A stretch of 40,165 nt of DNA from Chryseobacterium gleum (GCA_945888595.1 CAMDAO010000007.1:1-40165); one strand, 5' to 3'; shown: positions 3,356 to 17,440, numbered from the stretch's first letter. The notes: generated from the sequence alone by a model not told the origin. A program made the numbers and translations.

Positions 3356-4474
3356 TTAGATTAGAAAGTTCCAAAAATTCTCCTTATGAATAACGTGGGT
3401 AGATTTAGGGTGATATTTACCCGTAAATGACTTCGTAAAACGTACCTTTTGATTTGGATTGTACTTAATTTCATACGCATCTATGTCGCCATTTCGTACT
3501 TCTAAAAAATCAATTTCTGCTTGTTGGGTATTCCTCCAAAAAAAGGTGTCTTTGTAGTGATTTTCATAAATCAATTTCTTCTTTCTTTCACTGATTATAA
3601 AATTCTCCCATAAAGCTCCAATGTCATCGCGTGATTCTATCGGCTTAAAGTTTTTAATGACTCGATTTCTTAAACCATTATCCCAGAAATAAACTTTCCG
3701 ACCCTTTTTTAGCTCATTGTCTTGATTTTTGCTAAATGCATGTAAACTGAAGACAATAAAATTCTTTTCTAAGATATCGATGTATTTTTCGACAGTTATT
3801 CGATTGATTCCTAAATCATTTGCTAATGAACTATAACTGATCTCTGAACCAATCCTAAAAGCAAGCATTTGAACCAATTTCTGCAAGGTAGATGACTTTT
3901 TAACGCCTTCTAGATTCAATATGTCTTTGTATAAAAAAGCGTCTGTCAAATCATTTAAGATTTTCTCTTCCTTCCCTGGATTATTTATTACCTCCGGATA
4001 ATACCCAAAAACCAAACGATGTGGTATCAATCTCGTTTCTTCAATGAAATTGGTATGTGCTATCATTTCTGCATAGGTCAAGGGAAAAAGCTGAATTTCT
4101 TCTTTTCTTCCCACCATCGATTCTTTTGTTTTATCTGCTAATTCAAAAGCGCTACTTCCTGATGCAATCACTTGAATTTCAGGAAAACTATCGACCATTC
4201 TTTTAATCAACAAACCAATATTGTGGATCATCTGAGCTTCATCAATCACTAAAATCTTCTTGTCACCAATCAAAATACGCAATCGATCTGTCGTGATATT
4301 CTCTAACAAAAACTGGGTGTCTGGCTCATCTCCATTCATCCAAACATACGTATATTTTTTGATTGCAGCTTTCATCAAGGAGGTTTTTCCCACTTGTCTA
4401 GCTCCAAAAACAAGAATAGATTTACCTTTAAAAAGATAACTATTTATTTCTTCTAATTTAATTCTAGACACCAT
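3356..4474 (-). CDS. AAA ATPase with DUF4143 C-terminal domain
   Basis: Member of the AAA_14/DUF4143 ATPase family, 372 residues from the chosen start. The Walker A motif GARQVGKT is at 24-31 and the Walker B motif ILVIDEA at 74-80. A helix-turn-helix-like segment (LANDLGINRITVEKYI) lies near 208-223. The C-terminal part has EID at 320-322 and EIK at 335-337, the spacing of a PD-(D/E)xK nuclease-like fold reported for DUF4143. The ATG at 4474 is preferred over one 63 bases upstream because a good -7 element (4493-4500) lies between them and the extra 21 residues are unlike the family. These genes are common, scattered and of unknown role in Bacteroidota. Some have been suspected of mobile or toxin-like behaviour, and nothing here settles that. 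Four 32-bp repeats precede it. Confidence 0.85.
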   Translation of the reverse strand: MVSRIKLEEINSYLFKGKSILVFGARQVGKTSLMKAAIKKYTYVWMNGDEPDTQFLLENITTDRLRILIGDKKILVIDEAQMIHNIGLLIKRMVDSFPEIQVIASGSSAFELADKTKESMVGRKEEIQLFPLTYAEMIAHTNFIEETRLIPHRLVFGYYPEVINNPGKEEKILNDLTDAFLYKDILNLEGVKKSSTLQKLVQMLAFRIGSEISYSSLANDLGINRITVEKYIDILEKNFIVFSLHAFSKNQDNELKKGRKVYFWDNGLRNRVIKNFKPIESRDDIGALWENFIISERKKKLIYENHYKDTFFWRNTQQAEIDFLEVRNGDIDAYEIKYNPNQKVRFTKSFTGKYHPKSTHVIHKENFWNFLI

Positions 4475-4492
4475 GTCATTGCTGTTTTGATA

Positions 4493-4500
4493 CAAATATA
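4493..4500 (-). promoter_or_regulatory. -7 promoter element of the AAA/DUF4143 gene
   Basis: The minus strand reads TATATTTG, a full match to TAnnTTTG, 18 bases before the ATG at 4474. The transcript would have a very short leader. The 32-bp repeat array starts about 14 bases upstream. Confidence 0.55.
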
Positions 4501-4513
4501 TAAAAAAAAATAT

Positions 4514-4641
4514 AATAATATGAGATTTGAATATCAAAAAAATACAATAATATGATATTTAAATATCAAAAAAACATAATAATATGAGATTAGAATATCA
4601 AAAAATTATAATAATATGATATTTAAATAGATGAAAAAGAT
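4514..4641. repeat. Four tandem 32-bp repeats carrying phased palindromes
   Basis: AATAATATGA recurs at 4514, 4546, 4578 and 4610, an exact 32-base period, with the last unit diverging at its end. Each unit carries a 16-base palindrome or near-palindrome (4521-4536, 4553-4568, 4585-4600, 4617-4632). The second is perfect: TGATATTTAAATATCA. An A-tract follows each of the first three. The spacing is close to three helical turns, so the sites face the same side of the DNA. The array lies directly upstream of the AAA/DUF4143 promoter and reaches to 56 bases beyond the glutathione peroxidase stop codon. Confidence 0.8.
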
Positions 4642-5362: not shown

Positions 5363-6232
5363 ATGATGAAGAAAATTCTCTTAATAGCTTTATTATTCTG
5401 CACTTTTTACTCCTATTCTCAAGTTGTTTTCAATGGATTATGGCAAGGAATCCTCATACTTGATGGTCAAAAATTGGAACAAGGAAAAATTATTTTTGCA
5501 AACTTCACGGTAACAGGAAAAAACATAGAGGGAAAAACAAGAGAAGAAGTCTACAATACGGACTTGTATGCGGTTAAAAAAATAAAAGGAGACGTCACAA
5601 ATAATGAAATTAAATTCAAGCAATTTGCCATCGAAAAAAAGAAAACTGCGAGTTCGATCACCTGGTGTTTATTTGAATCTACCTTATACTATAATGACAG
5701 CACAGGTTACTTGGAAGGTAAATTTTCTAGCACTGATTGCCGCAGAAATACTGGGAAAATGATCTTTTATAGGTCGAATGCTAAATTTTCAGCAAATGAA
5801 TCAGCTGTACTGACCCAAAACTGGATTGAAACGTTTAAAAACGATCTTAAACTGGGCTTAAATGCTCCTGAAATACGAATTAAAGAAAGAAGTGAATTTG
5901 TTTTTGAACCTATTTATTTCGACGTAGATCAGGCAATAATAAAACCTGTCTACGAACCTTACCTCTTAAAAATGATTCGCATTGTGAACGGGCATTCCGA
6001 TTTGAGAGTACAAATAACTGGCCACACCGATTCTGACGGATCGGATATCTACAATGAAGACCTTTCAAAAAGAAGATCACAAGCCATCATCGATTTTTTT
6101 GTCAAAAATGGAATTAAAGTAGACAAGCTAAGCATTGAATTTAAAGGTGAAAAAAATCCAATAGACACCAACAAAACCAAAGACGGAAAAAAACACAACC
6201 GAAGAGTTGACTTTGAATTTATTTATAAATAG
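5363..6232 (+). CDS. OmpA-family outer-membrane/peptidoglycan-linked protein
   Basis: 289 residues from the start MMKKILLIALLF. The reading frame is open further upstream, but the extra 34 codons precede the signal peptide and are rejected. The signal peptide ends near residue 20 (SYSQ). Residues 21-160 form a beta-rich region I do not recognise, with a short cysteine-containing stretch (WCLFES, TDCRR). Residues about 178-289 are an OmpA C-terminal peptidoglycan-binding domain, with FEPIYFDVDQAIIKP, TGHTDSDGS, LSKRRSQAI and the final NRRVDFEF. It probably tethers the outer membrane or a surface complex to peptidoglycan. The N-terminal domain is too short for an OmpA barrel. It is convergent with the gene ending at 6277. 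Confidence 0.85.
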   Translation: MMKKILLIALLFCTFYSYSQVVFNGLWQGILILDGQKLEQGKIIFANFTVTGKNIEGKTREEVYNTDLYAVKKIKGDVTNNEIKFKQFAIEKKKTASSITWCLFESTLYYNDSTGYLEGKFSSTDCRRNTGKMIFYRSNAKFSANESAVLTQNWIETFKNDLKLGLNAPEIRIKERSEFVFEPIYFDVDQAIIKPVYEPYLLKMIRIVNGHSDLRVQITGHTDSDGSDIYNEDLSKRRSQAIIDFFVKNGIKVDKLSIEFKGEKNPIDTNKTKDGKKHNRRVDFEFIYK

Positions 6233-6276: not shown

Positions 6277-8181
6277 TTATTTCACCAGCCTTCTATAACC
6301 TACCACTGAAGCAGCAGAATAGCGTCTAAAACAAACTTGATCGTCTTGGTTTCCTCCTAAGCAGATGATTTCATTTGTTTCTGTATCTTTTCCAATAAAT
6401 ATAGAAACATGGCCTTTCCACGAAGAGGGATCTTCTCTCCAAAAGATAACCACATCGCCAGGTTGCGGTTCTTGCACCTTTTTTCCTACCTCTAACCATG
6501 ATTTTGCCAATGGTTTTATTTTATAATTAAATCCAGCTTTTTTAGCACAATACCCTACAAAAACACTACACCAAGCATCTTCATCCGTTTTTATTTTACT
6601 ATTCCCCGTTTCTTTGAAAAACTTCACAATAATGGGGTTATTCACTTTTCCTACGACTTCCTTAACTCCATATAATTTTCGCGCTTCTACTATCAAAGGC
6701 ATTTGCAAAATAGCATTATCTGCTACTTCAAGTAAGGCAAGGTCGTTTAAAAAAGGTTCCGTTGAGTTTGCCCAAGATACAATTTTAGTAACCTCTCCTT
6801 TTGATAATTCACGCCCAGTCTTTATAGGCCTCATCACATTATTGGAAATATTTTTATTAGTGATATTTTTAACAAAAGCTGCTACCTCATCTTCTTCAAG
6901 GCCGTTGTTCGTGATAAAATAACTAATTTGCACGCCATTAGATGACGTAATCAGTAATCTTCCACTTTTAGTAATAGGAATCGTCAACAATGTTTTTGAT
7001 TCTAGTCGTTCTTTCTTGAAATCTACAATATTTGTTGACTTTTCACTACAAGTATTAGTTATTGGATCAAAATTAAAAAACTCAACGGTTACATAGTTTA
7101 GCTGTTGATCAAAGAGTAGATTAATTTTATTCTTTGCATTCAATGTGTTTTTTAATGGTAAAAATGAACTGAATGTAGCACCACTATTTTTTGGTTCCAT
7201 GTAAACTAAAGACTCAAAAGCTGCCAAAGATATCGGTGTTTTGAGTAATTGATCGGCTTCCTTATTCGGGAAATGTGAATAAATCATGATTTCAGGATCC
7301 ACTTTCATCCATGAATCACCTAAGGCAATATCGCACAGAAAATGATCATTAACAGATGTCAATTCATTCCAAGAATGATCTACTTTTTGATACCCAAACC
7401 CTTTTTGTTTTTTTAGAAATCCGCCAATTGTTCTAATCTTAAGACCTACTAAACCACCCAGTATTTCAATTGAGTTCGCAAGTGACTTACTATTAACGGT
7501 TCTTTGTCGCCCGCTCAAAATATTTCTCACGATTTGCTCATTCGCTGTTTGATAATTTGCAAGGTTAAAATCTTCATCGTACAGCACATCCTTGCTCAAA
7601 TAATCACGAATTGCTTGAAATTTAGCCACATCTGAAGTTTGACTCTTCGTTAAATACCCTACTAAATCAGCGAGATCTATCTTCTCATAAGCTTCTGGGT
7701 TTGTCACCACAAGATTTGAAATTGGATCTAAATAAAATGGCATGTCATATTTCTTTTCACTGGTAGTTTTAAATAAAAAATCATTCTTATGTGTTTTGCT
7801 TTGTAATTTATTCTTGTAAATTTTATTATCGACAAAAGCATACGATTTTTCATAGACAACTGAAGGGAAAGATTTATTAGTACAATTGAAGATAATTTTC
7901 CCGGCTGTTGAGGTAAAAACACCCGTATTTCGTTGCACCTTGCTTTTATGCACTAAATTCAATTTCTCCTTACTTTTTGAGTAGATTCTATCTGGCGTAT
8001 ACATTAGATGTTCAAACGAATTATCTTTGTATAATCGAATAATTTCTATTTTATTTCCTGTCTTATTTGGAATAAACACCTGTTTTAACTCAGAATGCAC
8101 AGATTTCCATTGATTGTCATTTGCTTGTAAAGCTGACGTTGAAATGCAAAGAGCAAGAATCAGAGATTTTATCTTTTCCAT
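6277..8181 (-). CDS. Exported protein: degenerate transglutaminase domain plus CHAP/NlpC-like peptidase
   Basis: 634 residues with a signal peptide of about 20 (cleavage after ALQA). Residues about 180-300 look like a transglutaminase-fold domain: VDHSWNEL supplies the histidine (H269) and FLCDIAL the aspartate (D284). Where the catalytic cysteine is expected (GRQRTVNSKSLANS) there is serine (S231 or S233), so this half is probably not an active cysteine enzyme. Residues about 505-634 resemble the TIGR02594/CHAP-like family: C538 in DEDAWCSVFVGYC, H591 in WKGHVSIFIG, and GDVVIFWRE between them. That half looks intact and may cut peptidoglycan peptides. It is the third gene of an operon with two other exported proteins, 42 bases behind the second. 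The substrate is unknown. Confidence 0.75.
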   Translation of the reverse strand: MEKIKSLILALCISTSALQANDNQWKSVHSELKQVFIPNKTGNKIEIIRLYKDNSFEHLMYTPDRIYSKSKEKLNLVHKSKVQRNTGVFTSTAGKIIFNCTNKSFPSVVYEKSYAFVDNKIYKNKLQSKTHKNDFLFKTTSEKKYDMPFYLDPISNLVVTNPEAYEKIDLADLVGYLTKSQTSDVAKFQAIRDYLSKDVLYDEDFNLANYQTANEQIVRNILSGRQRTVNSKSLANSIEILGGLVGLKIRTIGGFLKKQKGFGYQKVDHSWNELTSVNDHFLCDIALGDSWMKVDPEIMIYSHFPNKEADQLLKTPISLAAFESLVYMEPKNSGATFSSFLPLKNTLNAKNKINLLFDQQLNYVTVEFFNFDPITNTCSEKSTNIVDFKKERLESKTLLTIPITKSGRLLITSSNGVQISYFITNNGLEEDEVAAFVKNITNKNISNNVMRPIKTGRELSKGEVTKIVSWANSTEPFLNDLALLEVADNAILQMPLIVEARKLYGVKEVVGKVNNPIIVKFFKETGNSKIKTDEDAWCSVFVGYCAKKAGFNYKIKPLAKSWLEVGKKVQEPQPGDVVIFWREDPSSWKGHVSIFIGKDTETNEIICLGGNQDDQVCFRRYSAASVVGYRRLVK

Positions 8182-8223
8182 GGTATAAGGAGTTAAATTT
8201 TCATATATAATCAGCCTTTCCGA

Positions 8224-9618
8224 TTAGTTGAAGCGAGATTGATCGGCAGGTGTTGTCAAGATGCTAGCCATTTCATCAAAGTCTTTTTTGATCGTTTTAA
8301 AGAAAAAAGAATTTCCGCGTTTTAATCCCGATGACGTAATTGTTTTACTAAACTCTTCTTTTGAAACGTAAGCGACTTTTCCATTGGGAAGCACTGCAAT
8401 TAATTCACAAGGAGAATCAGTGAAAGGAATTTCATCCCAATCAAATGCATTGAATCTAATCACCGACCTTTTTTTCTCTAGAACTACGTAGAGCATGACT
8501 TTATTTAGTTCTGGGTTTAAATCCTTTTCAAAATCAAATTGAAGATCCACTTTCGCTAAAATCGAGGTACTTGCAAAACAATCGATATTACAGATTCCAA
8601 ATTCATTCATTTCAAAGATATTTAATACTCCAGCTTGTAAAAGTAGTCGATCTTCTTCTTTGTCTATTTCAGCAAATTCAATTTTGTAATCTGCTAAATC
8701 TTTGTTATATCTTTCAGTCGCTTTTGCTAACTCTTTCCCTGCAAGAACTGGAGAAGCAATCATAGTATAGCTAGAATTAATTGCTTGCCTTAAATTATTA
8801 GGTACGGACAAAGAAAAAGTCAATTTGAAACTATTATTATCATCGGTCAACCGGTCAATTGTAATTTTATCCCAACTTATCCTTAACGCTTCTTGAGGTA
8901 AAAGTTCATCATCTGAATTGATAAATTTCCATTTAACATTTTCCCATATCTTCAGATGTGGCATACGTTTTAGATCAGAAACCAATTCAAAAACAAATTT
9001 TGCGGTATCCGTCAATGGATTTACAGGTAGAGCTGGGAGATCAGGTAATGCTGCCAATGCAGAATCTCTGCGGACATTTTTAGTAGTTTCAAATGCGGCA
9101 CCAGTATCCCAACTTTCATCATTATTCAATTTGAATAATTTATATTCTGCTGTTGGAGTGATGGCTGAAGCTAATTCTACCTCCACCTTTTTTCCTTTCA
9201 TTAATTTTACTGGTTTTTTATTTTGAAACACTCTCAATTCCATCATCCCACCTGACGAAAAGTAATCCGTTCTATCGTCCCCAAATTGCATTGGGATACC
9301 AGACAAAAATATCTCACGAGCATTTTGAAATTCTCGAAACTTTAACGTCACCTTCCCTTTTATTTTTTTACCATTTTCATCTACTAGCGCATCTCCAGGT
9401 ATTACAATATGCGTACCCGTTGGCTGATTAAAAACAACACCCTTGCTAGCATCAAATGATTTATAAACAATTGAAGTACTTTTACTTAAAGGCGGTAAAA
9501 TACCTTCTTGATATTGAGATAAATAGATATAATAACTAAAAGTTAATAAAGAAATGGATACGACTAAAGAAGTTAATACAATTCTTTTCTTTGTTTGGGA
9601 TTGAATTTTCGTTTTCAT
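8224..9618 (-). CDS. Membrane-anchored protein with ZU5-like domain
   Basis: 464 residues. A single hydrophobic segment at about 13-33 follows a basic N-terminus and probably anchors the protein with its bulk outside the cytoplasm. Residues about 55-165 follow a pattern common in exported Bacteroidota proteins and resembling ZU5 domains: a sequence like FNQPTGTHIVIPGDALVDE, then KGKVTLKFREF, then a Gly-rich SSGGMMELRVF. The remainder is beta-rich, with a lone CNIDCF pair near 345. I do not recognise a specific function. It begins 10 bases after the stop of the beta-propeller gene and lies 42 bases before the peptidase gene, so the three are very likely co-transcribed and may form one envelope assembly. 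Confidence 0.65.
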   Translation of the reverse strand: MKTKIQSQTKKRIVLTSLVVSISLLTFSYYIYLSQYQEGILPPLSKSTSIVYKSFDASKGVVFNQPTGTHIVIPGDALVDENGKKIKGKVTLKFREFQNAREIFLSGIPMQFGDDRTDYFSSGGMMELRVFQNKKPVKLMKGKKVEVELASAITPTAEYKLFKLNNDESWDTGAAFETTKNVRRDSALAALPDLPALPVNPLTDTAKFVFELVSDLKRMPHLKIWENVKWKFINSDDELLPQEALRISWDKITIDRLTDDNNSFKLTFSLSVPNNLRQAINSSYTMIASPVLAGKELAKATERYNKDLADYKIEFAEIDKEEDRLLLQAGVLNIFEMNEFGICNIDCFASTSILAKVDLQFDFEKDLNPELNKVMLYVVLEKKRSVIRFNAFDWDEIPFTDSPCELIAVLPNGKVAYVSKEEFSKTITSSGLKRGNSFFFKTIKKDFDEMASILTTPADQSRFN

Positions 9619-9628
9619 GGCTAACTAT

Positions 9629-10960
9629 TTAATTGGTTATTAATTGACTTGCACTAATTCCTAAATCAAAGCAATATAAGTTCTCATCGTAGCATCCTAT
9701 TAGAACATCTAAATTTCCGTCCTTATTAAAATCAGAGATAAAAGGAGTGAATTCCGAACCTGCAGGAAGCTTCGTACTATAACGAATTTTTCCAGAATTT
9801 AATCCTATTAAAACAAGGGTAGAAAATGGATTACCTTGATACACAACAACAGCGCATGATTCATCATTAAAATTAATCTTATTGGCTGCTACCTGTCCTT
9901 CGCCAAAATCATTTTTAATAAGCTTACCTGCTTGATTTTTACTGTATGTAAACTGGATAGGAATTACTTTCAATTCATTCCCTTTTGAAGAAGGTTTTAT
10001 TATTGCTTGAGTTGTCAAGAATACATCAGATGTTTGACTAAGTAAAGCAAATCCTAATGTCGCAGATGATGGGACCTTATTAATTAGTTTTCCCTTTGCG
10101 TTATAAAAAGAGATGAATTCCTCACCAGCAGTACTTTGATGCAAAATCATAATTTTACTTTCAGATCCTTTACCAATAATTAGTGGTTTTTCTTTGCCCA
10201 TCTTTGACCAATAATAATCCGAATCACCTGAATTGATTTCCCACATTAATTTTCCTGTTCTACCGTTAATTGCGTCAAAAGAACCCCAATTATTATTATA
10301 GATTAAATCCATTACACCATCCCCATTTAAATCAGTCAAACTAGGCTCATTAAAATATAAATTATCTTGAGAAAAATACATTCTGATTTTAAATATTGGT
10401 CGGTTTTCACCCAACTTCCATCCTGAGAATTTCTTATTGTAATAATTCCAAATCATTTTGCCCGTTAATGGGTCAAGGGCTTGTATTTGTCCTGTTTCTG
10501 TTGCAAAAACAATCATTTGTTTACCAGAGCTATTTAATAATATAGGACGGTGTTCAATATCACCTGCTGCCGCAACTCTCCATTTTACATCCCCTTGTTG
10601 ATTGATACAAAGAAATTCTTCATTGTCATTGCCAAAATAGATTAAACCATTTAGATTTAAAACACCGTTGACATCCATGTCACCAAATTGTTTACTTTCA
10701 AAATTTTTGATGACTTCACCATTTTTAGAATTTAGCATGTAGACTCCATTTGCTTTATCAATCGAATAATCTCTAAAATTACTACCGTTGGAACCTATTA
10801 ATAGTTTACCATCTGTCAAAACTGGAATGGTGCGGTAACTGGTGCAACCAATTTTAGTTTTCCAATGTTGTTTAAGAGTAGTTTTTAAAACTATTTTCTG
10901 GTTAGGCAAAGAAGCGCTCATTGTACAAATAAGCAACAGTAAAAGAATTAGACGTTTCAT
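9629..10960 (-). CDS. Secreted PQQ-like / FG-GAP beta-propeller protein
   Basis: 443 residues with a clear signal peptide (MKRLILLLLLICTMSASLP). The mature protein has repeated blade-like segments: GKLLIGSNGSN, GLIYFGNDNEEFLCIN, ATETGQIQALDPLTGKMIWN and ENLYCFDL near the end. Two FG-GAP-type calcium-binding-like loops, DLNGDGVMD and DFNKDGNLD, are also present. This is the pattern of PQQ-repeat and integrin-like propellers used for binding, not a PQQ enzyme, since no quinoprotein active-site motifs are seen. It is the first gene of the three-gene operon and probably serves as a scaffold or ligand-binding part. It stands divergent from the SRPBCC gene at 11376. Confidence 0.75.
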   Translation of the reverse strand: MKRLILLLLLICTMSASLPNQKIVLKTTLKQHWKTKIGCTSYRTIPVLTDGKLLIGSNGSNFRDYSIDKANGVYMLNSKNGEVIKNFESKQFGDMDVNGVLNLNGLIYFGNDNEEFLCINQQGDVKWRVAAAGDIEHRPILLNSSGKQMIVFATETGQIQALDPLTGKMIWNYYNKKFSGWKLGENRPIFKIRMYFSQDNLYFNEPSLTDLNGDGVMDLIYNNNWGSFDAINGRTGKLMWEINSGDSDYYWSKMGKEKPLIIGKGSESKIMILHQSTAGEEFISFYNAKGKLINKVPSSATLGFALLSQTSDVFLTTQAIIKPSSKGNELKVIPIQFTYSKNQAGKLIKNDFGEGQVAANKINFNDESCAVVVYQGNPFSTLVLIGLNSGKIRYSTKLPAGSEFTPFISDFNKDGNLDVLIGCYDENLYCFDLGISASQLITN

Positions 10961-11375: not shown

Positions 11376-11813
11376 ATGATTAGTATTAGAAATGAAATAG
11401 TAATAAATAAACCCATTTTGGAGGTATCAAACTATGCATCCGACCCTACAAATTCAATAAAATGGTGTAAAAGAATTATTTCCGTTCAATGGAAAACTCC
11501 TAAACCTATTCAATTAAACTCAAAAATTTCCTACAAATCTAAATTTATGGGGGGGCTGATTTCCTATACGTATGAAGTAGTTTTTTTTCAAGAAAATAAA
11601 AAATTAATGGTTAAAATAAAAGAAGGGGTATTGCCATTATCTACAACTTTCCACTGGAATTCCATCGATGAAAATAGCACGATAATGACCATAACGACTG
11701 TAGGGAAACCAAAAATGTTTTCCAGTATTTTATCCCCATTTGTGTCTCTTGTGATGAAGCAGAGATCTCAAAAAGATCTCAAAAAACTGAAAGAAACTCT
11801 TGAAAATAAGTAG
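11376..11813 (+). CDS. SRPBCC-superfamily (polyketide cyclase-like) protein
   Basis: 145 residues with the layout of a START/Bet v1 fold. A first strand ends in a pattern typical of polyketide cyclase/dehydrase-type proteins (NEIVINKPILEVSNYASDP). A conserved tryptophan region (NSIKWCKRIISVQW) and a strand meander follow, and a long C-terminal helix (SLVMKQRSQKDLKKLKETLE) closes the fold. There is no signal peptide, so it is cytoplasmic. Members bind hydrophobic ligands or lipids in a cavity, and the specific ligand cannot be read from sequence. It is a single gene with no apparent operon partner. Confidence 0.75.
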   Translation: MISIRNEIVINKPILEVSNYASDPTNSIKWCKRIISVQWKTPKPIQLNSKISYKSKFMGGLISYTYEVVFFQENKKLMVKIKEGVLPLSTTFHWNSIDENSTIMTITTVGKPKMFSSILSPFVSLVMKQRSQKDLKKLKETLENK

Positions 11814-12532: not shown

Positions 12533-15500
12533 ATGAAGAAAAAATTACTTTATCTCGGATTAGCCATTTTATTTGGTGGCTTTTCTTTACAGGCTCAAAA
12601 TGATTTGCAGGCTTTGCAAAAGTATGCTGTCAATAAATACACTCCAACGCACACTGTTACTCCTCCAAGCATGGATGAAATCAAAGCTGAAGATTTGGAA
12701 AGAGATAGAAACGGAATGTTTTATCGCATTGGGGTAGCTTCAGCAGCAAGCATTACGCCTGCAAGTTCTGGTTTGTGGATAACACTTCCAAATGGGGATA
12801 AACTATGGCAATTAAAAGTAAAAGCAACTGGCGCTGAAGCATTAAGTTTTTTGTTTTCCACTTTTAAATTGTATGACAATGCTTCATTTTGGGTGCAAGA
12901 CATGCAAGGAAAAGCTTTGTACAGAAAATTGACAAAATCTGATGTACTAGTGCATTTTCAGCAACATGTTGAATTGTGTTTTGGTGACGAAATGGTTTTG
13001 AATTTGTTGGAACCAGCTGGAGCGCAAGCTTCCGAGTTTTACTTAGATCAGATCATGTATGATTACCGTTCAACTGGAAATCCAAATGTGAATAAAATCA
13101 ATGAATCGGATGCTTGTCAAGTCAATGTTAATTGCACACCAGAGGGAAGTAACTGGCAAGATGAAAAAAGGGGGGTTGCACGAATTTTAGTTGTAGATGG
13201 AGCCAGTCAAGGTTGGTGTTCAGGTACTTTAATTAACAACACCTCACAAGATTGCAAACCATATTTCTTAACTGCGTTGCATTGCGGAGTGACTTCAACA
13301 ACTGCCAATTTCAATCAGTGGAAATTTTATTTCAGATATGAAGCAACAGCTTGCACAAATCCAACTTCTGCTGGAACTTTGGATGATTATTTCATCACGG
13401 GATGTGTCAAAAAAGCAAGTTCAAATGACGGTGGTGGAGATACAGGTTCAGATTTTTTACTTGTTCAATTAGGTTCAGCGGCAACTGAAGCGGCTACAAT
13501 TACAACTTTAAAGAGTGCAAATTTCAACGCATATTGGAATGGCTGGGATGCAAATAATACTGCTTCGAACAATGGTGTTAGTATTCATCATCCAGCTGGA
13601 GACATCAAGAAAATTTCTGCCTATACCACAAATACGACAACGGCTGGCTGGAATGGAAATGGAATTCAATCTCACTGGCAAATGGTTTGGTCAGCAACCA
13701 CAAATGGACACGGAGTAACTGAAGGAGGATCTTCCGGTTCGCCATTATTTAAATATAATGGGGGAAGCTCAAGAGTAATTGGAACATTGACAGGAGGAAG
13801 TTCTTTTTGTACAGCAACATCTTCTCCTGATTATTATGGAAAAATGTCTTACCACTGGCAATCAAACACTACAGCAGGAAATATTCCTTTGAAAACATTT
13901 TTAGATCCAGGAAATACAGGATTGTTAGTTTTAGATGGTTCTTCAAATCCCTGTGCGGTAGTTGCTGTAGCGCCAGTTGCTGAATTTATAGCAAGCACAA
14001 CCACACCATGTATTGGTTCAACTGTCACATTTACAGATTTATCTACCAATATACCAACTGGATGGGCATGGACTTTTAGTCCAACAACTGTCACTTACGT
14101 TGGTGGCACAAGTGCAACATCTCAAAATCCACAAGTGCAATTTAACGCAGCTGGACCATACACAGTAGCACTCACAGCTTCAAATGCGTATGGAAATAAT
14201 ACAAAAACAAAAACGAGTTACATTACTCCATTATCAGGAGCTGCTTTGCCGCTCGTTGAAAATTTTGAAGGAACCACTTTCCCTCCTACTGGTTGGACAA
14301 TCAATAATCCTGATTCTCCTTCTATTGTATGGGGAACTGCAGGTGCAAAGGGATTAGAAAAAAGAGCAGCAGCGGGTAATACAGGTTCTACTGTAGGATC
14401 TGTAGGACTTGATTGTTTTAATTATTCAGATACAAATCAAGTGGATGATTTAATTACCATTCCATTAAGTTTAGTTGGCACATCGTCTCCTAAGTTGACT
14501 TTTAAAAGAGCATATAAAACGTATGTTAGTGCTACAAATCCTCAATTTTATAGAGATGAATTAAAAGTGTATATTTCTGCAGACTGCGGAGTAACATGGG
14601 GATCTGCAGTTTACTTTAAAAAAGGCGCACAATTAGCGACAAACGGAACGTTAAATACTTCTTTCACTCCTAGTGCCACATCGGATTGGGATATTGACAC
14701 TGTCAATTTAACTGCCTATATCGGTCAAACAATAAAAGTGAAATTTTCATTTGGCAACAGATATGGCAACACATTGTATCTGGATGACATCAATATTAAC
14801 AGTGCTGCTTCAGTTGCTTCAGTTGCAATTACTTCAAGTGATGCAGATAATATTATTTGTGCAGGAAGCTCTGTTACTTTTACTGCTACACCAACAAATG
14901 GAGGAACAACGCCTTCTTACCAATGGAAAGTTAATGGTGTAAATGCTGGAACAAATTCACCGACTTTTACCACTAGTACTTTAACAACGGGTCAAATTGT
15001 TACGTGTGTAATGACCTCTACCTTAGTTGGAGTTTCTGGAAGTCCAGCGACATCCAATGCAATTACAACTACCGTTAATGCTATTCCTACGACTCCAGTT
15101 GTAACTACTAATTCACCTGTTTGTTCAGGATCATCTATCAATTTAACCACTCCAACGGTATCAGGAGCTACGTATGCATGGACAGGTGTAAATTCATATA
15201 CCAATTCAACACAAAACCCTACGATTACGGGTGCTACCTCTCTTAATGCAGGAGCATATAACTTAACTGTTACAGTTGGAGGATGTTCAAGTGTTGCGGG
15301 AACTAGCACAGTTGTGATTAATTCAACAGTTATCCCAAGTGTTGTTAATGCAATTACAGCAGGTGGCAATCCTACGTGCGTTTCGCAATCAGTTACTTTT
15401 ACTGCAACGCCTACGAATGGAGGGACAACACCTACGTATCAATGGCAAGTAAATGGCGTGAATGCAGCAACGGGTGTGAGTTACACTCCTGCAACCATTG

Positions 15501-17440
15501 CTAATGGTGCAATCATCACTTGTATCATGACAACAAATGTTACATGTCCTAGCACAGCAACCGCTACTTCAAATGCAATAACGATGGTTGTTACGACTTC
15601 AGTAACTCCTGCCGTGGTAATTACAGCAAGCGCAAATCCATCATGCACAGGATCAACAGTAACGTATACGGCTGCTCCGACAAATGGAGGAACAACGCCA
15701 ACATATCAATGGAAAGTAAATGGTTCAAATGTTGGAACTGGTGCTACCTATTCAAGTTCAACATTAGTAACAGGAAATATCGTGACCTGCGTGATGACAT
15801 CAAGTTCGCCATGTGCTGTTCCAACTACTGCAACATCCAATGCTATAACGGTAAGTATTTCTGCTATCGTTGTGCCTAGTGTATCCATTACTTTAACTAC
15901 TGGAACAAATCCTGCTTGCTCTGGGATAACTCAAACATTTACAGCTACACCAACGAATGGAGGAACAACACCTACCTACCAATGGAAAGTAAATGGAACA
16001 AACGTGGGAACAGGAGCAACTTATTCAACTTCAACACTAGCTACGTTGTCAATTATAACGTGTGTTATGACTTCTAGTTCTTTATGCGCAAGTCCGACCA
16101 CTGCGACGTCAAATGCAATCACAATGGTAATTACTGCATCTGTGACACCAATTGTATCTATTGCAATCACCGCAGGATCTAACCCTGATTGCCCGGGTAC
16201 AACACAGACTTTCACTGCATCTGCAGTAAATGGTGGTACATCACCAGCATATCAATGGAAAGTGAATGGAATAAATGTTGGCACAGGACTTACGTATACA
16301 AGTTCAACACTCTTAAATGGAGATATTGTTTCATGTGTTTTAACTTCAAATGCAACTTGTGCTACGGCAGCAACTGTAACATCTAACTCAATTACCATGT
16401 CGTTAGTAGGAACAATTGTTCCAGCGATTGCTATTAGCACAACTGCTGCATCAGCATGCATAGGAACAGCTATCACTTTTAATTCTTTTATAGCAAATGG
16501 AGGAACTTCACCCGTATATTCATGGAGCGTGAATGGAACTTCAGTTGGCACAGGCGCAACCTATACAAGTTCAACTTTATCAAATCTAGATGTTGTTACA
16601 TGTGTATTAACATCAAATGCAAGTTGTTTAACTACACCTACGGCAAATTCAAACGGAATCACAATGTCGATTTCTTCTCCTGTTACTCCTGCTATTTCGA
16701 TAGCTGTTTCAACGGGATCAAATCCAGCTTGTCAAGGCACGAACGTTGGTTTTACAGCGAGTGCAACAAATGGAGGAACGGCACCTGTTTATCAATGGCA
16801 AGTAAATGGATCCAATGTAGGAATTAATAGTTCTACATATTCTTCTACAGCGCTTAACAACGGTGATGTGGTAGTATGTGTTTTGATATCAAATGCAGGC
16901 TGTGTAACAACTTCAGGAGCTACATCTTCACCAACTACGATGACTGTTAACCCAATACCTGCAACACCAACAATTACGTCAAGTGGTGGGATGATTTTAA
17001 CGTCTAGTTCACCTACAGGAAACCAATGGTATTTAAACGGTGGGATTATCGCAGGTGCAACAAGTCAAAATTACACAGCAACGTCCAACGGTAATTACAC
17101 GGTGATAGTAACTGGGGCAGGTTGTCCATCACTTTCGTCGGCAAACTTCTTAGAATCTTCTGCAGGACTTTATGATGTGGTAAATGTAGGTTCTCACTTC
17201 ATCATTTACCCTAATCCAAGCAGCGGTAAATTCACTGTCGTGTTCACCTCTACTGAGTTGTTGAAATACAAAATTGAACTTCATAATTCAATAGGACAGA
17301 TTGTATATTTTGAAGACATAAAAGATTTCAACGGAGCCTATTCAAAAGATTTTGATATCACAGAATATGGAAAAGGAGAATATTTCTTACGAATTACAGA
17401 TTCTAAGAAAAACCAAATGGAAAAAGTAATTATTTATTAA
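12533..17440 (+). CDS. T9SS-secreted trypsin-like serine protease with PKD, adhesin-like and Ig-like repeat domains
   Basis: 1635 residues. The signal peptide ends near residue 21 (SLQAQ). After a propeptide-like region of about 190 residues comes a trypsin-fold domain resembling lysyl endopeptidases: catalytic H250 (FLTALHCG), D307 (GSDFLLVQL) and S401 (EGGSSGSPLF), with several cysteines suited to disulfides. A PKD domain follows (about 481-566), then a jelly-roll module of the cleaved-adhesin/choice-of-anchor type (about 572-757). Next is a run of Ig-like repeats of 87-91 residues (761-1473, with one dissimilar Ig-like unit at about 850-930) and a last one at 1474-1540. The tail (FIIYPNPSSGKF to the end) is a type A T9SS sorting domain. 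The protein is predicted to be secreted or fixed at the cell surface and to cleave extracellular protein. Lysine specificity is suggested by family only. Confidence 0.9.
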   Translation: MKKKLLYLGLAILFGGFSLQAQNDLQALQKYAVNKYTPTHTVTPPSMDEIKAEDLERDRNGMFYRIGVASAASITPASSGLWITLPNGDKLWQLKVKATGAEALSFLFSTFKLYDNASFWVQDMQGKALYRKLTKSDVLVHFQQHVELCFGDEMVLNLLEPAGAQASEFYLDQIMYDYRSTGNPNVNKINESDACQVNVNCTPEGSNWQDEKRGVARILVVDGASQGWCSGTLINNTSQDCKPYFLTALHCGVTSTTANFNQWKFYFRYEATACTNPTSAGTLDDYFITGCVKKASSNDGGGDTGSDFLLVQLGSAATEAATITTLKSANFNAYWNGWDANNTASNNGVSIHHPAGDIKKISAYTTNTTTAGWNGNGIQSHWQMVWSATTNGHGVTEGGSSGSPLFKYNGGSSRVIGTLTGGSSFCTATSSPDYYGKMSYHWQSNTTAGNIPLKTFLDPGNTGLLVLDGSSNPCAVVAVAPVAEFIASTTTPCIGSTVTFTDLSTNIPTGWAWTFSPTTVTYVGGTSATSQNPQVQFNAAGPYTVALTASNAYGNNTKTKTSYITPLSGAALPLVENFEGTTFPPTGWTINNPDSPSIVWGTAGAKGLEKRAAAGNTGSTVGSVGLDCFNYSDTNQVDDLITIPLSLVGTSSPKLTFKRAYKTYVSATNPQFYRDELKVYISADCGVTWGSAVYFKKGAQLATNGTLNTSFTPSATSDWDIDTVNLTAYIGQTIKVKFSFGNRYGNTLYLDDININSAASVASVAITSSDADNIICAGSSVTFTATPTNGGTTPSYQWKVNGVNAGTNSPTFTTSTLTTGQIVTCVMTSTLVGVSGSPATSNAITTTVNAIPTTPVVTTNSPVCSGSSINLTTPTVSGATYAWTGVNSYTNSTQNPTITGATSLNAGAYNLTVTVGGCSSVAGTSTVVINSTVIPSVVNAITAGGNPTCVSQSVTFTATPTNGGTTPTYQWQVNGVNAATGVSYTPATIANGAIITCIMTTNVTCPSTATATSNAITMVVTTSVTPAVVITASANPSCTGSTVTYTAAPTNGGTTPTYQWKVNGSNVGTGATYSSSTLVTGNIVTCVMTSSSPCAVPTTATSNAITVSISAIVVPSVSITLTTGTNPACSGITQTFTATPTNGGTTPTYQWKVNGTNVGTGATYSTSTLATLSIITCVMTSSSLCASPTTATSNAITMVITASVTPIVSIAITAGSNPDCPGTTQTFTASAVNGGTSPAYQWKVNGINVGTGLTYTSSTLLNGDIVSCVLTSNATCATAATVTSNSITMSLVGTIVPAIAISTTAASACIGTAITFNSFIANGGTSPVYSWSVNGTSVGTGATYTSSTLSNLDVVTCVLTSNASCLTTPTANSNGITMSISSPVTPAISIAVSTGSNPACQGTNVGFTASATNGGTAPVYQWQVNGSNVGINSSTYSSTALNNGDVVVCVLISNAGCVTTSGATSSPTTMTVNPIPATPTITSSGGMILTSSSPTGNQWYLNGGIIAGATSQNYTATSNGNYTVIVTGAGCPSLSSANFLESSAGLYDVVNVGSHFIIYPNPSSGKFTVVFTSTELLKYKIELHNSIGQIVYFEDIKDFNGAYSKDFDITEYGKGEYFLRITDSKKNQMEKVIIY
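14813..16951 (+). repeat. Tandem Ig-like domain repeats inside the protease gene
   Basis: Seven homologous units of about 265-270 bases encode Ig-like domains centred on the motif TNGGTTPTYQWKVNG. They begin near 14813, 15332, 15599, 15869, 16142, 16418 and 16682. One divergent Ig-like unit lies between the first and second. The units are close enough in DNA, especially around the YQWKVNG codons, for recombination to change their number. Confidence 0.8.

Follow-up and report, generated by a model that had tools for sequence, protein, structure and literature searches.

Control of wall hydrolases in Gram-negative bacteria has been studied mostly in Proteobacteria. Work on T6SS treats TIGR02594 as a peptidoglycan-degrading NlpC/P60 domain (PMC13055248). 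In polymorphic toxins, inactive transglutaminases located after signal peptides have been proposed as binding domains, and the same study assigns GAIN/GPS and ZU5 to one superfamily (Zhang et al., 2012; PMC3482391). A TIGR02594 domain, a transglutaminase domain lacking its catalytic cysteine and a membrane protein that may be ZU5-like are encoded together, next to a beta-propeller protein, in the window analysed here (the whole stretch of 40,165 nucleotides, contig C7 of a genome of 2.6 Mb that is 86% complete).

The three ORFs, denoted PROP, ZU5 and TGC, are arranged in a row on the minus strand, separated by 10 bases (PROP-ZU5) and 42 bases (ZU5-TGC), and all carry predicted export or anchor signals; the initial annotation's description of three exported proteins in a tight row on one strand is thereby upheld. 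The upstream neighbour of PROP lies at 11376 and the downstream neighbour of TGC is ompA (5369-6232). Because both flanking genes sit on the opposite (plus) strand, the three genes form an isolated directon. Promoter and terminator scans found promoter-like sites no more common than in shuffled sequence. The features are as follows.

9629-10960, minus strand: PROP, exported beta-propeller protein, first gene of the operon (ORF, 443 aa, ATG start)
10280-10342, minus strand: PROP residues 207-227, FG-GAP loop DLNGDGVMD of calcium-binding type (Pfam FG-GAP)
9698-9745, minus strand: PROP residues 406-421, second loop of calcium-binding type (DxNxDG conserved)
8224-9618, minus strand: ZU5, membrane-anchored, periplasmic beta-rich protein with no Pfam family (ORF, 464 aa, ATG start)
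9526-9582, minus strand: ZU5 residues 13-31, predicted transmembrane helix (mean hydropathy 1.94; helix 4-34 in the AF2 model)
9079-9471, minus strand: ZU5 residues about 50-180, most conserved N-terminal domain, common to distant paralogs (ortholog alignments)
6277-8181, minus strand: TGC, exported protein with a C-terminal amidase (ORF, 634 aa, ATG start)
7294-7665, minus strand: TGC residues 173-296, degenerate transglutaminase-like domain (Transglut_core, 4.7e-6)
6292-6699, minus strand: TGC residues 495-630, TIGR02594 papain-fold peptidoglycan hydrolase domain (123.4 bits against a cut-off of 70.55)

Features of PROP, ZU5 and TGC

PROP begins with a signal-peptide-like sequence (MKRLILLLLLICTMSAS) in which no lipobox is found by eye. 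It matches the Pfam families PQQ_2 (1.5e-9) and FG-GAP (1.3e-5), and a PDB search with its profile reaches PQQ propellers, both designed and natural, as well as BamB. The ortholog alignment shows conservation of two DxNxDG loops that look calcium-binding in type; in the loop at 207-227, D210, N212, D214 and D218 are invariant in 11 orthologs. Assignment as BamB fails (41 bits against a TIGR03300 cut-off of 285.2). By its sequence PROP is a PQQ_2/FG-GAP hybrid propeller and not BamB, which narrows the earlier beta-propeller label.

ZU5 has a single predicted transmembrane helix preceded by basic residues, which predicts an N-in, C-out orientation with about 430 residues outside the membrane and a cytosolic part of only about 12. 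Single-chain structure prediction, proposed as a check in the initial annotation, succeeded for this protein (AlphaFold2 model from 21 homologs, pLDDT 84.6, pTM 0.71), whereas the TGC model is poor (pLDDT 53.5) and unusable. No Pfam family, including ZU5, GPS and GAIN, matches ZU5 at E<=1; a profile search of the PDB finds no sequence relative, and the AF2 model has no significant fold match there. The weak fold matches of highest probability are to two adhesion-GPCR GAIN domains (prob 0.66 and 0.51, E about 0.3), the best being 8oek (prob 0.66, TMq 0.20, E 0.3). The autoproteolytic CxH is absent from the window protein and the ortholog alignment contains no invariant Cys or His. Since GAIN/GPS and ZU5 are assigned to one superfamily (PMC3482391) and the weak matches are to GAIN, the label ZU5-like is possible and unproven; the membrane anchor of the earlier description stands, and the domain name finds no match among sequence profiles and weak similarity in fold.

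TGC also starts with a signal-peptide-like sequence (MEKIKSLILALCISTSALQA), followed by a beta region, the degenerate transglutaminase domain, a second beta region and the C-terminal amidase. The transglutaminase domain is above the Transglut_core cut-off (27.3 vs 23 bits). Alignment with Cys-bearing relatives, namely L086 of genome G784 (VAVCAGYA...HAWN...YD) and the unlinked homolog L075, places Ser231 of the window protein (TVNSKSLA) at the position of the catalytic Cys, while His269 and Asp284 are kept. At this position G784 has an intact Cys, L059, L081 and L082 have Arg, and the rest of the genus has Ser. Loss of the Cys excludes TGC as an active transglutaminase; the domain can therefore bind but probably does not catalyse, and analogy with the toxin proteins makes a binding domain the most likely interpretation.

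A genome scan with TIGR02594 returns identical coordinates for the C-terminal domain, in which C538, H591 and N611 are invariant across 15 compared amidase domains. The same stretch matches PHROG 1259 ('baseplate hub subunit and tail lysozyme', 8.9e-31). Because the transglutaminase Cys is lost and C538, H591 and N611 are invariant, the sequences identify the TIGR02594 amidase as the only active-looking enzyme of the set. What had been annotated as a transglutaminase-like/CHAP-like peptidase is thus supported in its C-terminal hydrolase domain and corrected in its transglutaminase part, which is degenerate.

Distribution and partners of the gene set

A profile of ZU5 orthologs was searched in 399 genomes of the order and 396 of the phylum, with G153 and G155 added from the genus. 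The ortholog group was drawn at E<=1e-80, below which there is a gap, and comprises 26 genomes. At all 24 readable loci (24/24) PROP lies directly upstream of ZU5 on the same strand, 2-26 bases apart. TIGR02594 is over the cut-off in 15/26 of these PROP-ZU5 genomes, and in a sixteenth (G154) TGC is severed by a contig end. The amidase adjoins PROP-ZU5 in 14 of the 15; in the fifteenth, G791, ZU5 stops about 96 bases from a contig end and a 615-aa TGC homolog begins at the edge of another contig. The family is rare in the order, exceeding the cut-off in 11/199 genomes, six of them within the set (G000, G563, G040, G096, G139 and G050). Among the five outside it, G561 has a distant ZU5-like gene two positions away from TIGR02594, and in G093 the contig breaks off at the locus. 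The pair count and the TIGR02594 counts rule out chance neighbourhood, and the co-occurrence survey suggested in the initial annotation leaves the set standing, with the pair at 24/24 and the amidase in 15/26.

Two amidase layouts are found. In the first (g1, g9, g13) the domain is downstream of PROP-ZU5 on a transglutaminase-type protein; in the second (g26, g39; G040, G096, G050) it is upstream, on a protein of 357-419 aa with an unrelated helical N-terminus. At three g9 loci, TGC is followed after 4-12 bases by the gene of an exported protein of 219-220 aa that may be an outer-membrane barrel (L081 10710-11369, L082 4034-4693, L085 5074-5736). In G559 a DUF5715 protein (confirmed by Pfam) takes the place of the amidase after PROP-ZU5, and a literature search on DUF5715 as a substitute wall peptidase there found no paper; in G659 a CAP protein follows the pair instead.

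Ten PROP-ZU5 genomes, some of them incomplete, have no TIGR02594 over the cut-off; the pair persists there, and so must have a use of its own. Our assignment from these gene sets is that PROP-ZU5 is the core and the amidase a frequent, optional third member with a swappable N-terminus. The pair might then be a two-protein surface structure with an unrelated role, the amidase being a loosely attached passenger. Retention of PROP-ZU5 where the genome has no TIGR02594 over the cut-off (g2, G752, G687, G273) agrees with this, as does the pairing of distant ZU5-like lipoproteins with WG-repeat proteins instead. We nevertheless regard a passenger amidase as rather unlikely, since TIGR02594, rare in the order, recurs here in two layouts and its tree and that of PROP-ZU5 recover largely matching genome groups. 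Pairwise distances of PROP, ZU5 and TGC also correlate (r 0.92-0.93, to which shared species history contributes). Trees and distances together fit long co-inheritance.

Distant ZU5-like proteins fall into at least two groups. Members of the first are lipoprotein-like and adjoin proteins of 530-1190 aa, several of which are WG-repeat proteins by Pfam; at L062-L064, L066, L067, L095-L097 and L099, the ZU5-like gene and that of a large exported WG-repeat or WG-like protein overlap or lie within about 20 bases. At two further loci (L068 3543-4265, L110 5931-6638) the ZU5-like gene is preceded by one for an exported protein of 235-240 aa that contains the motifs PELLRY and DFSIGxFQMKPSF. A lysozyme- or lytic transglycosylase-like reading of it, based on motifs seen by eye, was dropped, as Pfam, PHROGs and the PDB gave no useful match. 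The second group consists of single-TM proteins of 545-616 aa behind an ECF sigma gene (L076-L080), with a predicted short cytosolic segment, a TM helix and the ZU5-like domain outside. One of them, of 545 aa, is encoded in the window genome itself (L080 7744-10059, contig C38), 9 bases behind its ECF sigma-factor gene, and is a candidate membrane anti-sigma regulator. An ECF sigma gene is also found 153 bases downstream of orthologous PROP-ZU5 in two amidase-less genomes (L087 5535-6026, L088 2887-3378). These contexts suggest that the ZU5-like domain is surface- or wall-facing and used in both structures and signalling.

The longer relatives behind ECF sigma genes, L080 of the window genome included, and the sigma genes at L087 and L088 would also suit a sensing module, in which ZU5 is a receptor sensing either the wall or an enzyme of the wall, PROP a ligand-binding co-receptor and the amidase either output or cue. 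Window ZU5, however, has a cytosolic part too short for us to favour this, at about 12 residues, and no adjoining sigma gene; we consider a sensor at this locus improbable.

Genomic position and recombination

Within the genus (12 genomes) the order PROP-ZU5-TGC occurs in seven, window genome included, with TGC of G154 truncated as described above. No PROP was found in the remaining five, which include G150 (99% complete), G152 (94%) and G160 (92%). The triad lies beside ompA/gpx/gyrB in the window genome and in G159, and has other neighbours in G157, G158, G153 and G155. It is absent from the ompA/gpx/gyrB loci of G155, G160, G151 and G152 as far as the contigs reach. An AAA_14/DUF4143 ATPase gene of the window (3356-4537) has no counterpart in the otherwise matching locus of G159, which indicates that it was recently gained or lost; ATPase genes of a similar kind are also found close to the triad in G157, G158 and G155.

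Comparison with the close relative G159 (contig CANFRV010000003.1; L032/L071) reveals a divergent tract, window 8550 to about 14000, of about 45-88% nucleotide identity between flanks that are mostly 92-100% identical. It spans PROP, most of ZU5, an SRPBCC gene and the N-terminal part of a T9SS-type protease. The dS values are high for PROP (0.91), the first 100 residues of ZU5 (0.84) and the next gene (0.55), and low for gyrB (0.03), ompA (0.09), TGC (0.13) and the last 64 residues of ZU5 (0.14). Diversifying selection on PROP was considered and rejected: its dN/dS is 0.24, with dS at 0.91 vs 0.03-0.13 in gyrB, ompA and TGC. As dN/dS is low and dS locally high, the sequences are best explained by recombination between closely related species, in which PROP and the larger part of ZU5 were exchanged, rather than by adaptive diversification. 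The secreted protease-like protein of 1635 aa at 12533-17440 contains numerous Ig-like repeats and has a C-terminus of T9SS-like type. Its N-terminal third differs strongly from that of G159, and the remainder is about 94% identical.

Also in keeping with an antibacterial or predatory weapon are the uneven distribution of the set in the genus, its occurrence at several sites of the genome and the replacement of alleles. In this reading the exported amidase would attack the walls of other cells, with PROP and ZU5 serving to display it or to shield the producer. Some of the parts point the same way: in other settings TIGR02594 domains have been predicted to act as T6SS effectors (PMC13055248), and a dead transglutaminase after a signal peptide, ZU5, a propeller and Tox-NLPC/P60 are all components of polymorphic toxins of Bacteroidetes (PMC3482391). 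The organization of the locus argues otherwise. No consistent immunity gene was seen beside TGC, and PROP and ZU5 are the only genes shared by every locus. Both are retained where the amidase has been lost, whereas an immunity pair would behave the other way round. Polymorphic toxins keep their N-terminus and vary the toxin at the C-terminal end; here it is the enzyme at the C-terminus that stays the same and the N-terminus that changes. RHS, PAAR and T9SS sorting domains were not seen on PROP, ZU5 or TGC. A weapon is on balance unlikely. Anti-phage defence was discarded, with no PADLOC match at E<=0.1.

Proposed function and comparison with known systems

The likeliest role of the set, which recurs in one group of water-living bacteria, is that of a small machine for placing and regulating a wall-cutting enzyme. 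In its specific form, to which we give about an even chance, the proposal is a cell-envelope peptidoglycan-hydrolase module with ZU5 as scaffold, PROP as docking partner and TGC as a controlled enzyme acting on the cell's own peptidoglycan. ZU5 would be anchored in the inner membrane, and PROP would dock on it through a propeller face; together they may hold or gate the amidase. The dead transglutaminase domain could bind a wall peptide or a partner protein, and the amidase would cut peptide bonds of the peptidoglycan with the place or the time of cutting under control. Since genomes may lose the set, carry it at another site or equip it differently, the step it serves would be accessory, not essential. 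That the proteins bind, hold and cut, as the initial annotation put it, is something we likewise infer, family support existing for the cutting domain only.

A broader idea, unlikely though worth stating, is that the ZU5-like domain defines a Bacteroidota family of wall-facing receptors for wall hydrolases or wall fragments, which here would serve as an inner-membrane scaffold and gate the amidase together with a calcium-type propeller, and in its relatives would be wired to ECF sigma factors, as a sensor, or to WG-repeat proteins. If true, this would be an undescribed layer of control over peptidoglycan cutting. The locus is in any case a small module of Flavobacteriales that lends itself to testing. 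Its membrane protein belongs to a family without a Pfam model, and relatives of that family are found repeatedly next to ECF sigma factors within the order. If PROP, ZU5 and TGC prove to be a complex, they add a novel way of controlling wall hydrolases; if not, two uncharacterized families are still defined and the amidase is shown to be a real partner.

The hydrolase domain is known. Descriptions of the arrangement, the ZU5-like family or the coupling of ZU5 to a propeller were not found in the literature searched, which covers few subscription journals; to that extent they are undescribed, and the suggestion of an undescribed system is supported, no publication on the PROP-ZU5-TGC set having been found.

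Like other TIGR02594 and CHAP-NlpC/P60 hydrolases, the C-terminal 136 residues of TGC score over the cut-off and have Cys, His and Asn in place. Members described in papers or in PHROGs are tail lysozymes of phages and T6SS effectors, unlike TGC, where the domain comes after an N-terminal signal peptide and an inactive transglutaminase in the same protein and is encoded with PROP and ZU5. PROP shares PQQ_2-type blades and a signal peptide with BamB and PQQ-type propellers; it differs from BamB in its score below the cut-off, the lack of a lipobox and the added FG-GAP loops of calcium type. The fold of ZU5 is weakly GAIN-like (8oek), but unlike the autoproteolytic ZU5/GAIN domains it has neither a profile match nor CxH or a comparable cleavage motif. 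Sec-exported polymorphic toxins (Zhang et al., 2012; PMC3482391) have in common with TGC a signal peptide, a Cys-less transglutaminase and a C-terminal peptidase, and ZU5 and propeller belong to the same toxin grammar. There, however, the inactive transglutaminase precedes RHS repeats, which are absent from TGC, and the locus has no variable toxin tip and no consistent immunity gene and distributes its parts over three proteins. Dma proteins, compared here by layout, resemble the distant ZU5-like relatives in that these have a single TM helix and are encoded with ECF sigma factors, whereas ZU5 of the window lacks a sigma partner and is almost without a cytosolic part.
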